Part shown: positions 43,572 to 49,477 of the stretch, in pieces
How positions within the stretch are numbered: the first letter of the stretch is position 1
How the letters are laid out: every line of letters starts with the position of its first letter
Assembly: GCA_030550775.1 (NCBI GenBank)
Contig: JAUQOS010000008.1
Coordinates: 1 to 49,477, forward strand
Direction: 5' to 3'
From: Armatimonadota bacterium
GTDB taxonomy: Bacteria; Armatimonadota; Fimbriimonadia; Fimbriimonadales; GBS-DC
DNA length: 49,477 bases
Program-made: the position numbers and the translations under genes
The notes under the pieces: generated by a model
Told to the model about the DNA's origin: nothing
The model's database searches: none
Seen by the model: only the letters and a program-made list of their open reading frames with translations

Positions 43572-44335
43572 GCGGTCTGCGGTTTACCAAGTGGCATGGC
43601 GCAGGTAACGACTTCATCCTGCTAGACGCGTTTGGACAGTCGCTTGACGCCACCCACTTGAGTGAGTTGGCACAACGCCTGTGCCACCGCCCGCTTGGCA
43701 TCGGCGCAGATGGGCTGCTGGTGGTAGAACCCTCGCCTCAGGCGGATTGCCGCATGCGCTTGTTTAACGCCGATGGCTCGGAAGCCCCCATGTGCGGCAA
43801 CGGCATCCGATGCGTGGCGCGCTATATGCTCGAGTGGCACCTTTCTGACACGCACGCGCTCCGTATTGAGACAGGAGCGGGCATCCGAGAGGTCTCGCGC
43901 ACGGCAGACGGACGCTATCGCGTGGCAATGGGCACGCCCCACTTTGAACCGACGCCTGAAGGCTGGCTCGTGAACACGGGCGCGCTTCACTTGGTACAGT
44001 TTACCGACGCCTTAGAGGAGTTTCCGCTGGCGGTGCAAGGGGCAGCTCTACAACGCCATCCGCGTTTTCCTAACGGGGTGAACTTCACGGTGGGGCACGT
44101 GGCACGCGCCGACCTTGCGCGGGCACGCGTGTGGGAGCGCGGCGTGGGCGAAACATTGGCGTGCGGCACGGGCGCTTGCGCATTAGTGGTGGCGGGTGTG
44201 CTCACGGAGCAGCTTGCACGCACTGCCACCGTGCATATGCCGGGCGGGTTGTTGCAAGTGGAATGGGCAGACAACGGCAGCCTTTGGCTCATTGGCGACG
44301 CCGTCTGTGTGTTTGAAGGCGTTTGGTATGGCTAA
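43568..44335 (+). CDS. dapF: Diaminopimelate epimerase
   Basis: This 255-residue enzyme converts LL- to meso-diaminopimelate for lysine and peptidoglycan. The two catalytic cysteines are C76 in [16 protein letters not shown] and C199 in [13 protein letters not shown]. The N-terminus [15 protein letters not shown] is also typical. Start GTG 43568 overlaps the hfq stop as GTGA, with GAGGAG upstream. It converges on the DivIVA gene with a 4-base overlap. Confidence 0.96.
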
Positions 44336-44859
44336 CCTTGCACGTCGGTAGGCGTGTCGGGCAAGGGTGTCTCCACAACAGGGGTGGCAGCAACCGCCGA
44401 CGCTTCGGTAGGAGCCTCCAACGCTTGCAAATGGCTCAGCAATAGGGCGCGCAACTCCATCACCAGCGTGCGCTTGCGCGCTTCCAACGCTTCCGCTTCC
44501 GCCAACGCGCGTTGTGCCCGCGCCTCCGCCTCGCGCACAATTTGCTCGGCTTTCAGCTGCGCCTCACGCACAATGAGCTCCGCCTCCTTGTGAGCGTTGG
44601 CGCGGGTCTCATCGGCACTGCGCTGCGCCAACACCAGCGACTCCTTTAGAGCTTCCTCCATCGCCTTGTAGCGCTCCGCCTCTTGGCGCAGCCCTATCAG
44701 CTCCTCGCGCATCCGGTGATTCTCGGTCAGCACCTCCTCATAGTGCGCTGCCACCTCTTGCAGAAAGGCATCCACCGCAGTGGGGTCGTAGCCCCGAAAC
44801 CGCTTGCGGAACCGCTTAGTCTCAATCTCCAGCACCGTGAGGCGTCGTGGTTCGTTCAT
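44332..44859 (-). CDS. DivIVA domain protein
   Basis: This 175-residue protein has the N-terminal DivIVA membrane-binding region RLTVLEIETKRFRKRFRGYDPTAVDAFLQEVAAHYEEV. A long coiled coil rich in Ala, Glu and Arg follows (about 45-150), and a short Pro/Thr tail. It should oligomerise at curved membranes and guide division or cell-wall synthesis. It overlaps YggT by four bases, an arrangement seen beside sepF and ftsZ in other bacteria. Confidence 0.9.
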   Translation of the reverse strand: MNEPRRLTVLEIETKRFRKRFRGYDPTAVDAFLQEVAAHYEEVLTENHRMREELIGLRQEAERYKAMEEALKESLVLAQRSADETRANAHKEAELIVREAQLKAEQIVREAEARAQRALAEAEALEARKRTLVMELRALLLSHLQALEAPTEASAVAATPVVETPLPDTPTDVQG

Positions 44860-45149
44860 CGCAATCCGCTCAACATAATCACCAGGAACTGAATGAGCAC
44901 CAACGCAATCAAGGGCGAAAAGTCCAGCGGTAAGTAGCTAATGCCCATACTGCGCAGCAGGCGATTTTGGATCTGCCGAATCGGGTCTAAAATCGCGTCG
45001 CTCACACGGTCGATGAAGCGCACGATGGGGTTGTAGCGGGGCACGCGCCCGCCAGCGAACCGAATCCACGAGAAAATCACGCTGACGATCACAATCAGTG
45101 CCAAGATCCGCAGCACCAAGATAAGCAGGTCTATAATCGGCGTTAGCAT
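44856..45149 (-). CDS. YggT family membrane protein
   Basis: This 97-residue protein has two hydrophobic helices (about 5-30 and 70-95) separated by the YggT motif YNPIVRFIDRVSDAILDPIRQI. The function is not firmly known; relatives are linked to cell division or osmotic tolerance. GGGAGGG precedes ATG 45149. It is coupled to the DivIVA gene. Confidence 0.88.
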   Translation of the reverse strand: MLTPIIDLLILVLRILALIVIVSVIFSWIRFAGGRVPRYNPIVRFIDRVSDAILDPIRQIQNRLLRSMGISYLPLDFSPLIALVLIQFLVIMLSGLR

Positions 45150-45175
45150 CCGCGTGGCGCCCTCCCTTGAACGCT

Positions 45176-45766
45176 TTAGGAGCCGTTTTTGCGCTCCTCT
45201 TCCAGTTTTTTACGCACGCGTTGCACATTCGGTTCCACCGCAGGGTCGTTGGGGTCTAACTGTTTCGCTTTCTCCCACGCTTGCAGCGATTGTTGCAGCC
45301 GTCCGAGCCGTTCGTAGCAGTGAGCGAGCGTTTTCCACGCAAGCGCGGGGGCGTTCGCAAAGCTCACCGCCTTCTCCAAGTAAGGCAACGCCTGCTCGTA
45401 TTGCCGTTTGTTGAAGTAAGCAAAGCCAAGGTCATAGTATAAGTCGTAGCGGTTGGGGTTGAGCCGAATGCCGCGCTGGTAGACCTGAATGGCACGCGCA
45501 GTCTCGCCATAACTATCCAACATCCAAGCCAGCGAGCTGATGTTTTCCACATCGGTAGGGTCGTATTCAATCAGCACGAACATCAGCGCCATCGTTTTGT
45601 AGTGCTTGCCTGTATGCCAGTACTCATCGGCAAGTTGGATAAGGCGAAACTCGGTGAGTTGGCGCAGCGCGGTCAGTTTGCGCTGTACGGCTTCAGGTGG
45701 TTTCACCTGCGCCTCTAACGAGCCAAGCAGCACCGCACAGCCCACAATCAGTAGTAGATTTCGCAT
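45176..45766 (-). CDS. Exported TPR-repeat protein
   Basis: This 196-residue protein has a signal peptide (MRNLLLIVGCAVLLGSLEA) and about four TPR units between residues 40 and 180 (for example AIQVYQRGIRLNPNRYDLYYDLGFAYFNKRQYEQALPYLEKAV and SLQAWEKAKQLDPNDPAVEPN). It is probably a periplasmic scaffold, partner unknown. A GGAGGGA site lies just before the ATG. Confidence 0.82.
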   Translation of the reverse strand: MRNLLLIVGCAVLLGSLEAQVKPPEAVQRKLTALRQLTEFRLIQLADEYWHTGKHYKTMALMFVLIEYDPTDVENISSLAWMLDSYGETARAIQVYQRGIRLNPNRYDLYYDLGFAYFNKRQYEQALPYLEKAVSFANAPALAWKTLAHCYERLGRLQQSLQAWEKAKQLDPNDPAVEPNVQRVRKKLEEERKNGS

Positions 45767-45779
45767 CGTTCCCTCCCAA

Positions 45780-45787
45780 AGTATACC
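45780..45787 (-). promoter_or_regulatory. Putative -10 element GGTATACT for the TPR gene
   Basis: On the minus strand, 13 bases before the TPR ATG, predicting a leader of about seven bases. The GGAGGGA site then sits around the transcription start, which is an odd arrangement. Confidence 0.55.
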
Positions 45788-45895
45788 TATTGCCGCGCGT
45801 CCAAAAAGCGCGCTTTGGCGTGAGTAGGCGCGTTCCCTTCCGGCGCTCTTCCTACACCAAGATTTTCGGTTCCCTGCGCAGAATCTGGTAGGGGT

Positions 45896-47884
45896 TTAGC
45901 GCGAGACCTCGCCGATGGGCACTTCCAGCTCTATCAGCGTACGGTCGCCGCCACGCTGGAGCGGTATGCTCAGCCGTACTTCGTGCAAATAGCACAACGC
46001 TTCCTGGCCTGCGTGGCAATGGTAGACCAACAGATGCGCGTCTACGGCGGCACGCTCCGCTGTTAGTTGCATAGGCACGCGCAGTTCCAGCCCTGCGAAG
46101 GGCATCACCAGTTCGGGTTTACCCTGCAAGGTAGCGCCTTGTGCGTACAAGCGCACCTGCGATTGGGCATCGGGGTTGAGTTTATGTCCTTCAGGCAAGC
46201 GCAAACGCAGGAGAAGGGTTGGCGTCTCACTGCCAACCGTGATCGGGTTGAGCGTTTGGCGGGCGGGGGCGCGGTAGAGCGCGGGCGGTTGAGCCGCTTC
46301 CAGACCGCGTAGGCGGAATGTTTCTACGCGCTTGGTTTTCAAGTCTGCCACGCGGATGAGATGGTTGTTCGTGTCGGCGATGTAGAGCTTACCGTTGGCG
46401 TAGCTGATGCCGCCTGGCTCATCGAAGGTTGGGTTGTCGCCATCGCGCGCGCCTGCTGCGCCCGTGCCCAAGAAGGTCTCAATTCGGCGTGTGCGCGGGT
46501 CGAGCCGTTTGATTTTGTTGTTGTAGGTGTCGGCGACATAAATCACGCCGTCCACATACACCACGCCCAGCGGGTGTTGCAAGCGTGCTTCGTTGCCGAA
46601 GCCGTCTCGGTCGCCGAACTCAAATAGGTCGCCGCCCACCAGCGTTTCTAAGCTGCCGTTGGGGTTGATATCTGCTGCGCGGATGCAGCTTACCTCGCTA
46701 TCAGCGAAGTAGAGTTTCTTGCCGTCGGTGGTGATGCCCGAAGGTTGTGCCAGCGCGCTGGTGCGCAGCGGTCCGTCAATCCGAGCTTCGCGCCCCGTGC
46801 CTGCGTGGGGTTCTGCCTCCAGCGTGGTGAGGTTCAGACGCCAGAGCTGGTGCGAGCCCGCCATCGCGATGAATAACGTGTTGCCTACCAGCACCACATC
46901 CCACGGCGAGTTGAGCGCGACTTCACGCCCCTTGCCCGCTCGAGGTGGATAAAAGCGGCTTTGCTCGCCTGTGCCTGCCAGCGTCGCCACCGTGCGCTGG
47001 CGCAGATCGGCTTTGCGAATAGCGTGGTTATCTGTATCGGCAATGTAAAGCACATCGGCGTCGGCGTCGTATGCCATGCCCTGCGGGTTATTGAATCGTG
47101 CCGTTTCGAACGCGCCGTCCTCCAAGCCGGGCATGCCAGAACCAATCACCATCTGCACTGTGCCGTCCTGCAGCGAGGCAACTACAATCCGATGATGGTT
47201 GGAATCGGCGATAAACAGCCGTCCCGTGCGCGCATCTGCCAACACTTTACCAGGGAAGCGCAGCACCGTGCGCGGCTCGCGGTCGCGCTCCAAACGCAAG
47301 TTCAACGCGCCGCGCTTGAGTGTGCCCTTAGCTTCGGCCGCTTGAATCACCTGCGCGATGGCACGGTCAAACACCTCATAGATGCCTTCGCCCGAGTGAT
47401 AGCCCACAATCTTGCCGTTGGGGTCTATTAGCACCAATGTGGGCCACGCCCGCACCCCATAGAGCGACCACACAATCATTTGGCTGTCGTTGACTACAGG
47501 GTGCTCTATTTCGTAGCGCAAGATTGCCTGGCGAATGTTTTCGGTCTCTTGCTCGGTAAAGAACTTGGCAGAGTGCACACCGATCACAACCAGTGCGTCA
47601 GCGTACTTGCGCTCCAGTTTTTTCAAGTCGGGCAAGATGTGCATGCAGTTGATACAGCAGTAAGTCCAGAAATCGAGCAGCACCACCTTGCCGCGCAGCT
47701 CGCGCAGGCTCAGCGGGCGGTCGGTGTTGAGCCATTGGAGACCCTCTGGAAAGTCAGGGGCATTTACGATGCCTTCCATCGGTGAACCCTCCTGTGGAAC
47801 GGTTGGTTTGGTGCGCCCCCAGAGTTGCCAAAGTGCCGCCACTACCACTATAAGCAACGCCAGTAGCGCAACGCCTGTTTTCAT
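45896..47884 (-). CDS. Membrane-anchored thioredoxin-like and NHL-repeat protein (NHLRC2-like)
   Basis: This 662-residue protein has an N-terminal anchor helix (about 4-22). A thioredoxin-like domain follows at about 40-185, with the redox motif CINC at 77-80 in FWTYCCINCMHILP. A six-bladed NHL propeller spans about 195-530, with repeats such as GMAYDADADVLYIADTDNHAIRKAD and GVVYVDGVIYVADTYNNKIKRLD, and the C-terminus is a beta domain. Relatives include human NHLRC2; they are probably thiol-disulfide exchange proteins outside the cytoplasm. It overlaps the end of the restriction gene by four bases. Confidence 0.9.
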   Translation of the reverse strand: MKTGVALLALLIVVVAALWQLWGRTKPTVPQEGSPMEGIVNAPDFPEGLQWLNTDRPLSLRELRGKVVLLDFWTYCCINCMHILPDLKKLERKYADALVVIGVHSAKFFTEQETENIRQAILRYEIEHPVVNDSQMIVWSLYGVRAWPTLVLIDPNGKIVGYHSGEGIYEVFDRAIAQVIQAAEAKGTLKRGALNLRLERDREPRTVLRFPGKVLADARTGRLFIADSNHHRIVVASLQDGTVQMVIGSGMPGLEDGAFETARFNNPQGMAYDADADVLYIADTDNHAIRKADLRQRTVATLAGTGEQSRFYPPRAGKGREVALNSPWDVVLVGNTLFIAMAGSHQLWRLNLTTLEAEPHAGTGREARIDGPLRTSALAQPSGITTDGKKLYFADSEVSCIRAADINPNGSLETLVGGDLFEFGDRDGFGNEARLQHPLGVVYVDGVIYVADTYNNKIKRLDPRTRRIETFLGTGAAGARDGDNPTFDEPGGISYANGKLYIADTNNHLIRVADLKTKRVETFRLRGLEAAQPPALYRAPARQTLNPITVGSETPTLLLRLRLPEGHKLNPDAQSQVRLYAQGATLQGKPELVMPFAGLELRVPMQLTAERAAVDAHLLVYHCHAGQEALCYLHEVRLSIPLQRGGDRTLIELEVPIGEVSR

Positions 47885-49477
47885 AACAGCGGTATTGTAC
47901 CTGTGTCAAGAGGTTTTGGGGGCAGCAAGTGGATGAAAATCTCGTCAAAGCTCAGCACGCGCCCTTTGCGGTCGGCAAGCCACTTTTCGCATACCTGGTA
48001 GCCCCCAACCCGAAACGCCCACGCTTCTGGGGGCACGGGGGCGAAGTGTTGCGCCTCGTTCATCCACACCCGCTCGCCGTCGTAGCGCACGCGCTCCACC
48101 GTGTTGTCGCCCGCCACAGGGAACTTGCATAGCGGGATGTGCAAATCGGGATGCTCCAGCAGGTGCAGGGCTATCAGCTGCTGCCCCAGCGCGCTAAGTT
48201 TCTCGAACGCCTCGCGGTTGGGAGGCAGGGGAATGCGCGGGAAGTCGCGGCGCAAAAACTCGGCGTAGCGCGTGCGATAACAGGGCGCATGCAAAATCGC
48301 ATAGATGTAGGCGAGGATGGATTCGGGGGTTGGTTTGCCCTCACCCCCAGCCCCTCTCCCGCCGCGCGGGAGAGGGGAGTCCGCTCCCCCCTCTCCCACG
48401 CCGTGGGAGAGGGGGGCAAGGGGGGTGAGGGCCTCCTCCAACGCCGCCACAAACTTCTCGCTCACATTCACCCGACGACCACCCGACCACAAACCACCCT
48501 GCACCTCCGCCGAATCGTACAGGTACAGGGGAAAAGCGTAGTTGATATCCGTGTTGAAGTGCTCCTCGTTCGGCACGCGCGTAATAAACACTTTCGACCA
48601 CTGCGCCTCCTGCTGTGATTGCGAACGCACCGTAATCAACGCCACATTCTCACCTGCCAGCAAATGGCGCATCACCTCGGGGCGCGGCATGCAGTGAAAG
48701 CCCCGCGACCGGCCCGTGTAGAAAGTGTAGCGCCCATCGAACGGACGATACAGAATGGGCTGGATGTGCGCCTTCGCCCGCTCGTCGGGCACGCCCGCCT
48801 GACGCAAGTCCGCCTGCGCCCGCGCCACGCTCCAGTCGCGCACATCTTTGCCCAAGCCAAACTCCGCACGCGCCTGCTCTGGCTCCAACGCGGCGAACCG
48901 ACACACCGTGCGCCACACCGCCTCAGGCGTCCAGTGAATCGTGAGGCTGTCGCGCGCCGTCACGATGCCCACGCTGTGCGTCGGAAAAATATCAGGAATG
49001 CGCCAGCCCCGCTCATACTCCGCCTGCAACGACACATCCTGCGGCACAAACAGGTACATCGGCGACTGGGGCGTCAGGGGCGTCCACTCAATATCGTCCA
49101 GCCCGTGCGCCTCCAAAAACGCATACTTCGCCTCGCGCCGCCCCCACAGGTCATAGTAAAACACGCGCGACGCCAAACCAGCGTCCGCCCCCTCGAAAGG
49201 GGTTTCGGATTCTTGAGCCGGGCTCCGGATTTTCGAGCCGGACGCCAGGATTTTCGAGCCGGGTTCCAGATTTTCGAGCCGGACGCCAGGATTTTCGAGC
49301 CGGGTTCCAGATTTTCGAGCCGGACGCCAGGATTTTCGAGCCGGGTTCCAGATTTTCGAGCCGGACGCCAGGATTTTCGAGCCGGAGTTCCGGCTTGGCG
49401 CCGTGGGGTCCGGCTCGTCGAGCCGGGAGGCGTGTTTCATAGCAATCACGATAGCCACCCCCTGCTGGATGTCGAAC
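47881..49477 (-). CDS. Type ISP restriction-modification enzyme, C-terminal part (partial, runs off right edge)
   Basis: Only the C-terminal 532 or so codons are visible. The reading frame stays open to the window end, where FDIQQGVAIVIAMKH reads straight through; this is the conserved block between the methyltransferase and target-recognition parts of LlaBIII-type enzymes. It continues with RVFYYDLWGRREAKYAFLEAHGL, YLFVPQD, YERGWRIPDIFP, SVGIVTARD, ILYRPFDGRYTFY, MRHLLAGENVALITVRSQ and PLYLYDS. It should combine DNA translocation, cleavage and adenine methylation. Two insertions interrupt the fold: a repeat array at 49207-49391 and a 94-bp element at 48338-48431. The GTG at 49458 is not the true start. 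Confidence 0.88.
   Translation of the reverse strand, partial: FDIQQGVAIVIAMKHASRLDEPDPTAPSRNSGSKILASGSKIWNPARKSWRPARKSGTRLENPGVRLENLEPGSKILASGSKIRSPAQESETPFEGADAGLASRVFYYDLWGRREAKYAFLEAHGLDDIEWTPLTPQSPMYLFVPQDVSLQAEYERGWRIPDIFPTHSVGIVTARDSLTIHWTPEAVWRTVCRFAALEPEQARAEFGLGKDVRDWSVARAQADLRQAGVPDERAKAHIQPILYRPFDGRYTFYTGRSRGFHCMPRPEVMRHLLAGENVALITVRSQSQQEAQWSKVFITRVPNEEHFNTDINYAFPLYLYDSAEVQGGLWSGGRRVNVSEKFVAALEEALTPLAPLSHGVGEGGADSPLPRGGRGAGGEGKPTPESILAYIYAILHAPCYRTRYAEFLRRDFPRIPLPPNREAFEKLSALGQQLIALHLLEHPDLHIPLCKFPVAGDNTVERVRYDGERVWMNEAQHFAPVPPEAWAFRVGGYQVCEKWLADRKGRVLSFDEIFIHLLPPKPLDTGTIPLL
47894..47901 (-). promoter_or_regulatory. Putative -10 element GGTACAAT for NHL gene
   Basis: On the minus strand, nine bases before the ATG and inside the 3' end of the restriction gene, predicting a leader of about three bases. 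Confidence 0.5.
48338..48431. repeat. 94-bp bipartite palindromic element inside the restriction gene
   Basis: Terminal inverted repeats CCCTCACCCCC (48338-48348) and GGGGGTGAGGG (48421-48431) are perfect. Between them are two hairpins, CCCCTCTCCCGC/GCGGGAGAGGGG and CCCCTCTCCCACG/CGTGGGAGAGGGG. It adds about 31 residues, rich in Gly, Pro and Arg (LTPLAPLSHGVGEGGADS onward), without breaking the frame. Confidence 0.8.
49207..49391. repeat. Tandem repeat array, 41-bp unit (20+21 bp subunits)
   Basis: Eight exact cores TTTTCGAGCCGG plus one diverged copy alternate in 20- and 21-base subunits ending in GACGCCA or GGTTCCA. Because 41 is not a multiple of three, successive units are read in different frames. 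The protein therefore shows GSKILASGSKI recurring every 41 residues, separated by ARKSWRPARKSGT and RLENPGVRLENLEP. Confidence 0.9.
49410..49426. repeat. 17-bp palindrome flanking the tandem array
   Basis: CCGGCTCG and CGAGCCGG are perfect inverted arms around a single T. The arms match the CGAGCCGG core of the adjacent tandem repeat, so it may be the seed or an inverted remnant of that array. Confidence 0.6.

Follow-up and report, generated by a model that had tools for sequence, protein, structure and literature searches.

A 41-bp tandem array in the hinge loop of a Type IIG-like restriction-methyltransferase gene is probably a tolerated coding minisatellite

In EcoR124, the target spacing depends on how many TAEL repeats HsdS contains. 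The phase-variable Type IIG restriction-modification (RM) gene cj0031 of Campylobacter jejuni carries a poly-G tract, for which G9 and G10 variants and an accompanying change of the methylome have been described (PMC4889913). Rickettsia palindromic elements and other short palindromic repeats insert in frame into genes (PMC5656822), and toxin genes embedded in RM operons are well known, as documented in a survey of HEPN proteins (PMC3710099).

The array analyzed here lies near the end of a 49,477-nt stretch of Armatimonadota DNA (the whole stretch is referred to as the window), within the so-called hinge, which is located between the blocks NVFDIQQGVAI and VxHADLWG inside the methyltransferase domain. 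It resembles cj0031 in that a single-chain nuclease-methyltransferase-recognition gene carries a repeat tract in its coding region, where a frame shift would abolish both activities; in C. jejuni, however, the tract is a poly-G with observed variants, whereas the unit here comprises 41 bp and no variant was observed, one genome per species having been compared. With coding minisatellites of a period not divisible by three, the array shares head-to-tail units, a homogeneous centre with decayed edges, the use of three frames in turn and the confinement to one gene, but its loop also attracts other kinds of inserts in unrelated bacteria. The Rickettsia palindromic elements are comparable in their in-frame insertion at tolerant positions, which applies to a second insert in the same gene (48337-48432) and to inserts in three orthologous loci (L162, L284, L288), whereas the 41-bp array is a single-locus tandem and not dispersed. 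Toxin-antitoxin genes lie within RM gene clusters in the HEPN survey, whereas in two of our loci (L164 and L084) they separate the halves of a single gene precisely at the hinge. Regarding sequence and fold, the same methyltransferase-recognition unit is present in DrdV (PDB 7lo5) and in LlaGI and LlaBIII (PDB 5ffj, 4xqk). The latter two carry an SF2 ATPase, LlaBIII comprising 1,578 residues, whereas the orthologs here are ~1,050-1,080 aa long without a helicase match and thereby similar in length to DrdV (1,029 aa).

The contig ends ~50 bp past the array, cutting the 5′ part of the gene, and the following features were assigned to the remaining part:
47881-49476, minus strand: single-chain restriction-methyltransferase gene, of which the 3′ part with 531 codons is present and the 5′ end is lost at the contig end (open ORF; PF18135 Type_ISP_C; PADLOC Type IIG REase_MTase)
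47941-48993, minus strand: Type_ISP_C specificity domain (PF18135), residues 162-512 (Pfam E 4.1e-89)

Annotations of plasmids name this enzyme family "type ISP", and the sequence-only reading had used the same term. The C-terminal specificity domain characteristic of Type ISP is indeed present (PF18135, E 4.1e-89); nevertheless, the term is imprecise, as the orthologs are only ~1,050-1,080 aa long, show no helicase match and fit Type IIG models. Full-length orthologs from the same genus and family, G010 (1,083 aa) and G016 (1,050 aa), contain N6_Mtase and Type_ISP_C domains, and no helicase family representing the SF2 helicase-like ATPase of Type ISP enzymes was detected in these two proteins. 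G010 matched the PADLOC Type IIG model PDLC03610 with 878 bits over residues 27-1055 and has the Type IIG layout, a chain of ~1,000 aa combining nuclease, N6-methyltransferase and recognition without an ATPase, with the nuclease recognized solely from a PD..E.K-like motif of related loci. The folds closest to the model of the gene part were those of DrdV, followed by LlaGI and LlaBIII. Based on length, domains and PADLOC match of the orthologs and on the model folds, the enzyme is better called Type IIG (DrdV-like) with a Type ISP-type recognition domain.

The array and its surroundings are organized as follows:
49429-49476, minus strand: FDIQQGVAIVIAMKHA, last part of the NVFDI block in the methyltransferase domain, flanking the array on its upstream side (alignment with 20 orthologs)
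49392-49427, minus strand: degenerate edge copies on the 5′ side of the array in the coding sense, edge unit CTCGACGAGCCGG (TRF row of 82-bp period extending to 49427)
49207-49391, minus strand: tandem array, 4.5 copies of a 41-bp unit composed of a 21-bp and a 20-bp half-unit (TRF score 333; half-unit spacing)
49141-49164, minus strand: VFYYDLWG block, which flanks the array downstream and with which the methyltransferase fold continues (alignment; short strand 105-107 in the model)

TRF analysis confirmed the 41-bp tandem repeats that had been recognized at 49207-49391, yielding a period of 41, 4.5 copies, 96% match and a score of 333, compared to a top score of 69 among 30 shuffles of the whole window; rows with periods of 20/21 and 82 were also obtained. 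On the coding (minus) strand, the half-unit CCGGCTCGAAAATCCTGGCGT (21 bp) alternates with CCGGCTCGAAAATCTGGAAC (20 bp), resulting in spacings of 21, 20, 21, 20, 21, 20, 21 and 20 along the array. The copies are near-identical in the centre and decayed at both edges, reaching ~49427. Since its tandem units clearly exceed chance expectation and lie within an ORF, the array represents a coding minisatellite. Its longest exact internal repeat comprises 117 bp, so the copy number as assembled depends on read and k-mer length. When the own genome and 12 congeners were searched, the 41-bp unit was detected exclusively at the array locus; since a dispersed or palindromic repeat family has copies elsewhere in the genome, the array was rejected as a member of such a family. 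A hairpin-forming array was rejected as well, as it folds worse than shuffles, and no Rfam match to a structured RNA was obtained within 44000-49477.

From the contig end at 49476, the reading frame runs uninterrupted across the array to the stop at 47881, so that the array is indeed situated between FDIQQGVAI and (R)VFYYDLWG in one continuous frame. The unit lacks stops in all three frames on both strands, which extends the earlier observation made for the coding strand. A stop-free array of long units had, however, also been considered unusual, and this view did not hold: 17.5% of shuffled units and 57% of the 41-mers from the rest of the same gene are stop-free in tandem by chance. As the period is not a multiple of three and the frame is open across at least three units, all three frames have to be stop-free; stop-freeness is therefore forced by the open frame and provides no independent evidence of design. 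The value of 57% for 41-mers of the same gene may serve as a control for judging claims on such arrays. In silico, changes of −41, +41, +82 and −20 bp ended the protein early, within or soon after the array region, whereas the frame was kept with −21 and −123 bp. The prediction that the protein is truncated when one 41-bp unit is gained or lost, or when a 20-bp subunit is deleted, was thus correct, but it does not apply to loss of the 21-bp half-unit. Any insertion or deletion whose length is not divisible by three eliminates what follows of the methyltransferase fold together with the entire target-recognition domain. Since in silico unit changes lead to a frame shift and to loss of an essential domain, the gene could in principle switch in this way. 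The period of 41 bp stands out, as arrays inside long ORFs of a 306-kb genome sample mostly have periods divisible by three. A literature search for tandem repeats that rotate the frame or for RM switches with long units retrieved nothing relevant.

The remaining part of the gene contains two further deviations:
48337-48432, minus strand: second insert of the gene, likewise in frame, a dispersed self-complementary repeat (CTCACCCCCAGCCCCTCTCCC type) that orthologs lack (alignment gap; low pLDDT)
47881-47940, minus strand: divergent C-terminal tail FIHLLPPKPLDTGTIPLL plus stop (alignment; homology to G012 stops at 47941)

The second insert has more partial copies in the own genome and many in congeners, as is characteristic of a dispersed or palindromic repeat family. 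At the C-terminus, the last ~30 residues that are conserved in orthologs are missing and an unrelated tail is present instead; homology to an 84%-identical copy in G012, a genome that has kept only fragments of the gene, likewise ends at 47941. Comparison with G012 in the recognition-domain end yielded dN 0.083 and dS 0.668, and the gene was therefore constrained for most of the divergence between the two. The copy analyzed here may have decayed recently. For the 5′ half of the gene, no match was found in the own assembly using a query without a positive control in this genome. The replaced 3′ end (47881-47940) adjoins a thioredoxin-like gene.

In array-less orthologs of the phylum, NVFDI and the KYxxL of the following block are 42-54 residues apart, and no array is present at the hinge in G011, G010, G016 and G185. 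Two congeners, in contrast, carry arrays at exactly the array site, G006 a 21-bp array of the ADRLQSD type and G009 another 21-bp array of the ASPGTPC type, the latter in a gene remnant. Because of their 21-bp units, neither is able to shift the frame. The arrays at this site hence differ among three species, with two out of three being frame-neutral. Common ancestry of the three arrays was considered and dropped, since the mutual similarity of their units is no better than that of shuffles. Within the 13 genomes of the genus, the G006 unit was found at the hinge locus only; the G009-derived pattern gave scattered single matches with one mismatch in the genus and none at the G009 array itself.

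The hinge was further analyzed across bacteria. Orthologs were found using an alignment as query, as the protein of the gene part alone found nothing. In total, 146 distinct orthologs with both flanks were obtained; the own genome (G000) and G009 were left out, as their N flanks are cut, and matches on Borrelia miyamotoi plasmids annotated as several CDS were excluded from the counts. Alignment with LlaBIII places the hinge after the NVFDI motif, ~50 residues before the recognition domain. In the AlphaFold model of the gene part, residues 27-101 have a pLDDT below 50, and the hinge loop is thus predicted to be disordered. Compared to the models, the extra length at the hinge has a median of ~3 residues (146 orthologs), whereas ten of the 146 have at least 15 extra residues and in seven the gene is split. 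Three loci (L162:2780-2880 from Gallionella, L284 and L288) contain an in-frame inverted-repeat element, GTCATTCCCGCG..GCGGGAATCCA, at the hinge, which has 17, 22 and 29 matches in the respective genomes; a reversed control pattern gave no matches in these three genomes, and the element itself none in G000 or G010. A different repeat-like segment is present at the hinge of L287. The following loci have a split gene:
L164:2834-3516: hinge split by HEPN and MNT genes
L176:2004-2444: hinge split by an IS200-like transposase gene
L208:2589-3041: hinge split by a PIN-domain gene (Pfam match just above cut-off)
L084:2694-3148: hinge split by a HicA toxin gene and a HicB-like partner (partner without Pfam match, labelled from reading the sequence)
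L018:2784-3344: hinge split by a gene of unknown function
L159:3316-3497: hinge split by a short gap
L285: hinge split by an IS4-like transposase gene (labelled from reading the sequence)

For six of these seven split genes, the C-part could begin with ATG or TTG directly in front of the next block, and in five of the six a Shine-Dalgarno-like sequence lies just upstream. When 500 residues upstream were checked, ORFs containing the C-block were found to begin at the hinge, within 42 residues, in six loci; at most six begin at other positions, three of these being close to a contig start. The two halves of the split genes may still work together.

Taken together, the array most likely represents a young coding minisatellite that is tolerated in the permissive hinge loop of a Type IIG-like methyltransferase and kept in frame by selection. 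Loop tolerance is favoured over an on/off switch because relatives across bacteria repeatedly gain repeats or whole genes at this position, and it is supported by the different 21-bp arrays that G006 and G009 carry at this position and by the second, dispersed repeat residing in frame in another segment of low pLDDT. Growth of the array would have started with duplication of a 20/21-bp half-unit followed by duplication of the 41-bp pair, possibly by slippage or unequal exchange. Since the loop is predicted to be disordered, extra residues would be nearly harmless there, and any stop-free sequence might be tolerated. The array would be close to neutral, with selection removing only frame-breaking lengths, and out-of-frame alleles may have been purged or not sampled. 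On the other hand, an array may be of use in this genus, given that three of its species have one at the hinge. Tolerance by the loop is the simplest explanation for this eye-catching stop-free, frame-rotating array.

A phase-variation switch, in which gain or loss of a 41-bp (or 20-bp) unit turns the whole restriction-methyltransferase on and off comparable to the poly-G of cj0031, had been proposed by the sequence-only reading. Its frame logic is right in silico, as unit changes cut the protein before the recognition domain; furthermore, phase variation via a coding repeat tract is known for Type IIG enzymes of the single-chain kind (PMC4889913), and the period is exceptional among the long-ORF arrays of the 306-kb sample. 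What speaks for the proposal is chiefly that a 41-bp unit growing by single steps must pass out-of-frame states, which fits a switch as well as tolerance. Nevertheless, we regard a switch as unlikely, considering that no variant was observed with one genome compared per species, the congeneric arrays at the site are of 21 bp and frame-neutral, stop-free frames are expected by chance, changes of −21 and −123 bp keep the frame, this gene copy is 3′-truncated and the hinge is a general insertion site. It is even harder to argue for a selected linker, with enzyme properties such as the movement of the recognition domain or the target being adjusted through its length or charge, as known for TAEL in HsdS. 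Repeat-lengthened linkers at one site in three congeners among those with a visible hinge would be in line with this; however, the three sequences share nothing, one of them lies in a gene remnant, and the insert is located within the methyltransferase fold ~50 residues before the recognition domain and not between two recognition domains. The contig end ~50 bp past the array and the 117-bp exact internal repeat might suggest an assembly artefact or a wrong copy number, which is highly improbable given that both flanks are homologous and in one frame, that the edge copies differ from the central ones and that congeners have arrays at the same site. Least probable of all is insertion of a member of a mobile or dispersed repeat family at the hinge: such families do insert there in other bacteria, and elsewhere in this very gene, but the 41-bp unit occurs nowhere else in the own genome or the genus.

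The recurrent splitting of and insertion into the hinge is a more interesting result than the array and deserves follow-up. Since the loop repeatedly accepts repeats and genes, lengthening or splitting of these enzymes at this position should be possible, as should the nesting of toxin-antitoxin cargo within an RM gene. Tentatively, and with some doubt, the hinge of single-chain Type IIG/ISP enzymes might be viewed as a general insertion hub, with a clean split into N-part and C-part in several phyla, toxin-antitoxin or transposase cargo, natural two-chain enzymes and cargo tied to an intact RM system. The N-part would comprise the nuclease and most of the methyltransferase, the C-part the rest of the methyltransferase and the recognition domain with its own start codon, and the 41-bp array would be a repeat-only occupant. 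In the literature searched, no description of a hinge accepting repeats and genes in single-chain RM enzymes was found, which is no proof of absence.

Additional repeats were observed in the congeners. In G006, a second array with a 36-bp unit, PAPSLERDAPAT, is present in the same RM gene just before the LDPACGTGSF motif (L030:1-111). G009 contains another 41-bp array of unrelated sequence (AGATTCCTCACCTTCGGCTCGGAATGACAGGC..., 4.7 copies) ~2 kb from the hinge remnant (L036:2299-2489), and G010 carries CRISPR-like arrays with the repeat GTTTCAATTAGCACCCACCCTTGGGGGTGAATGCTAC (L134:11059-13895 and L117:1760-2185).
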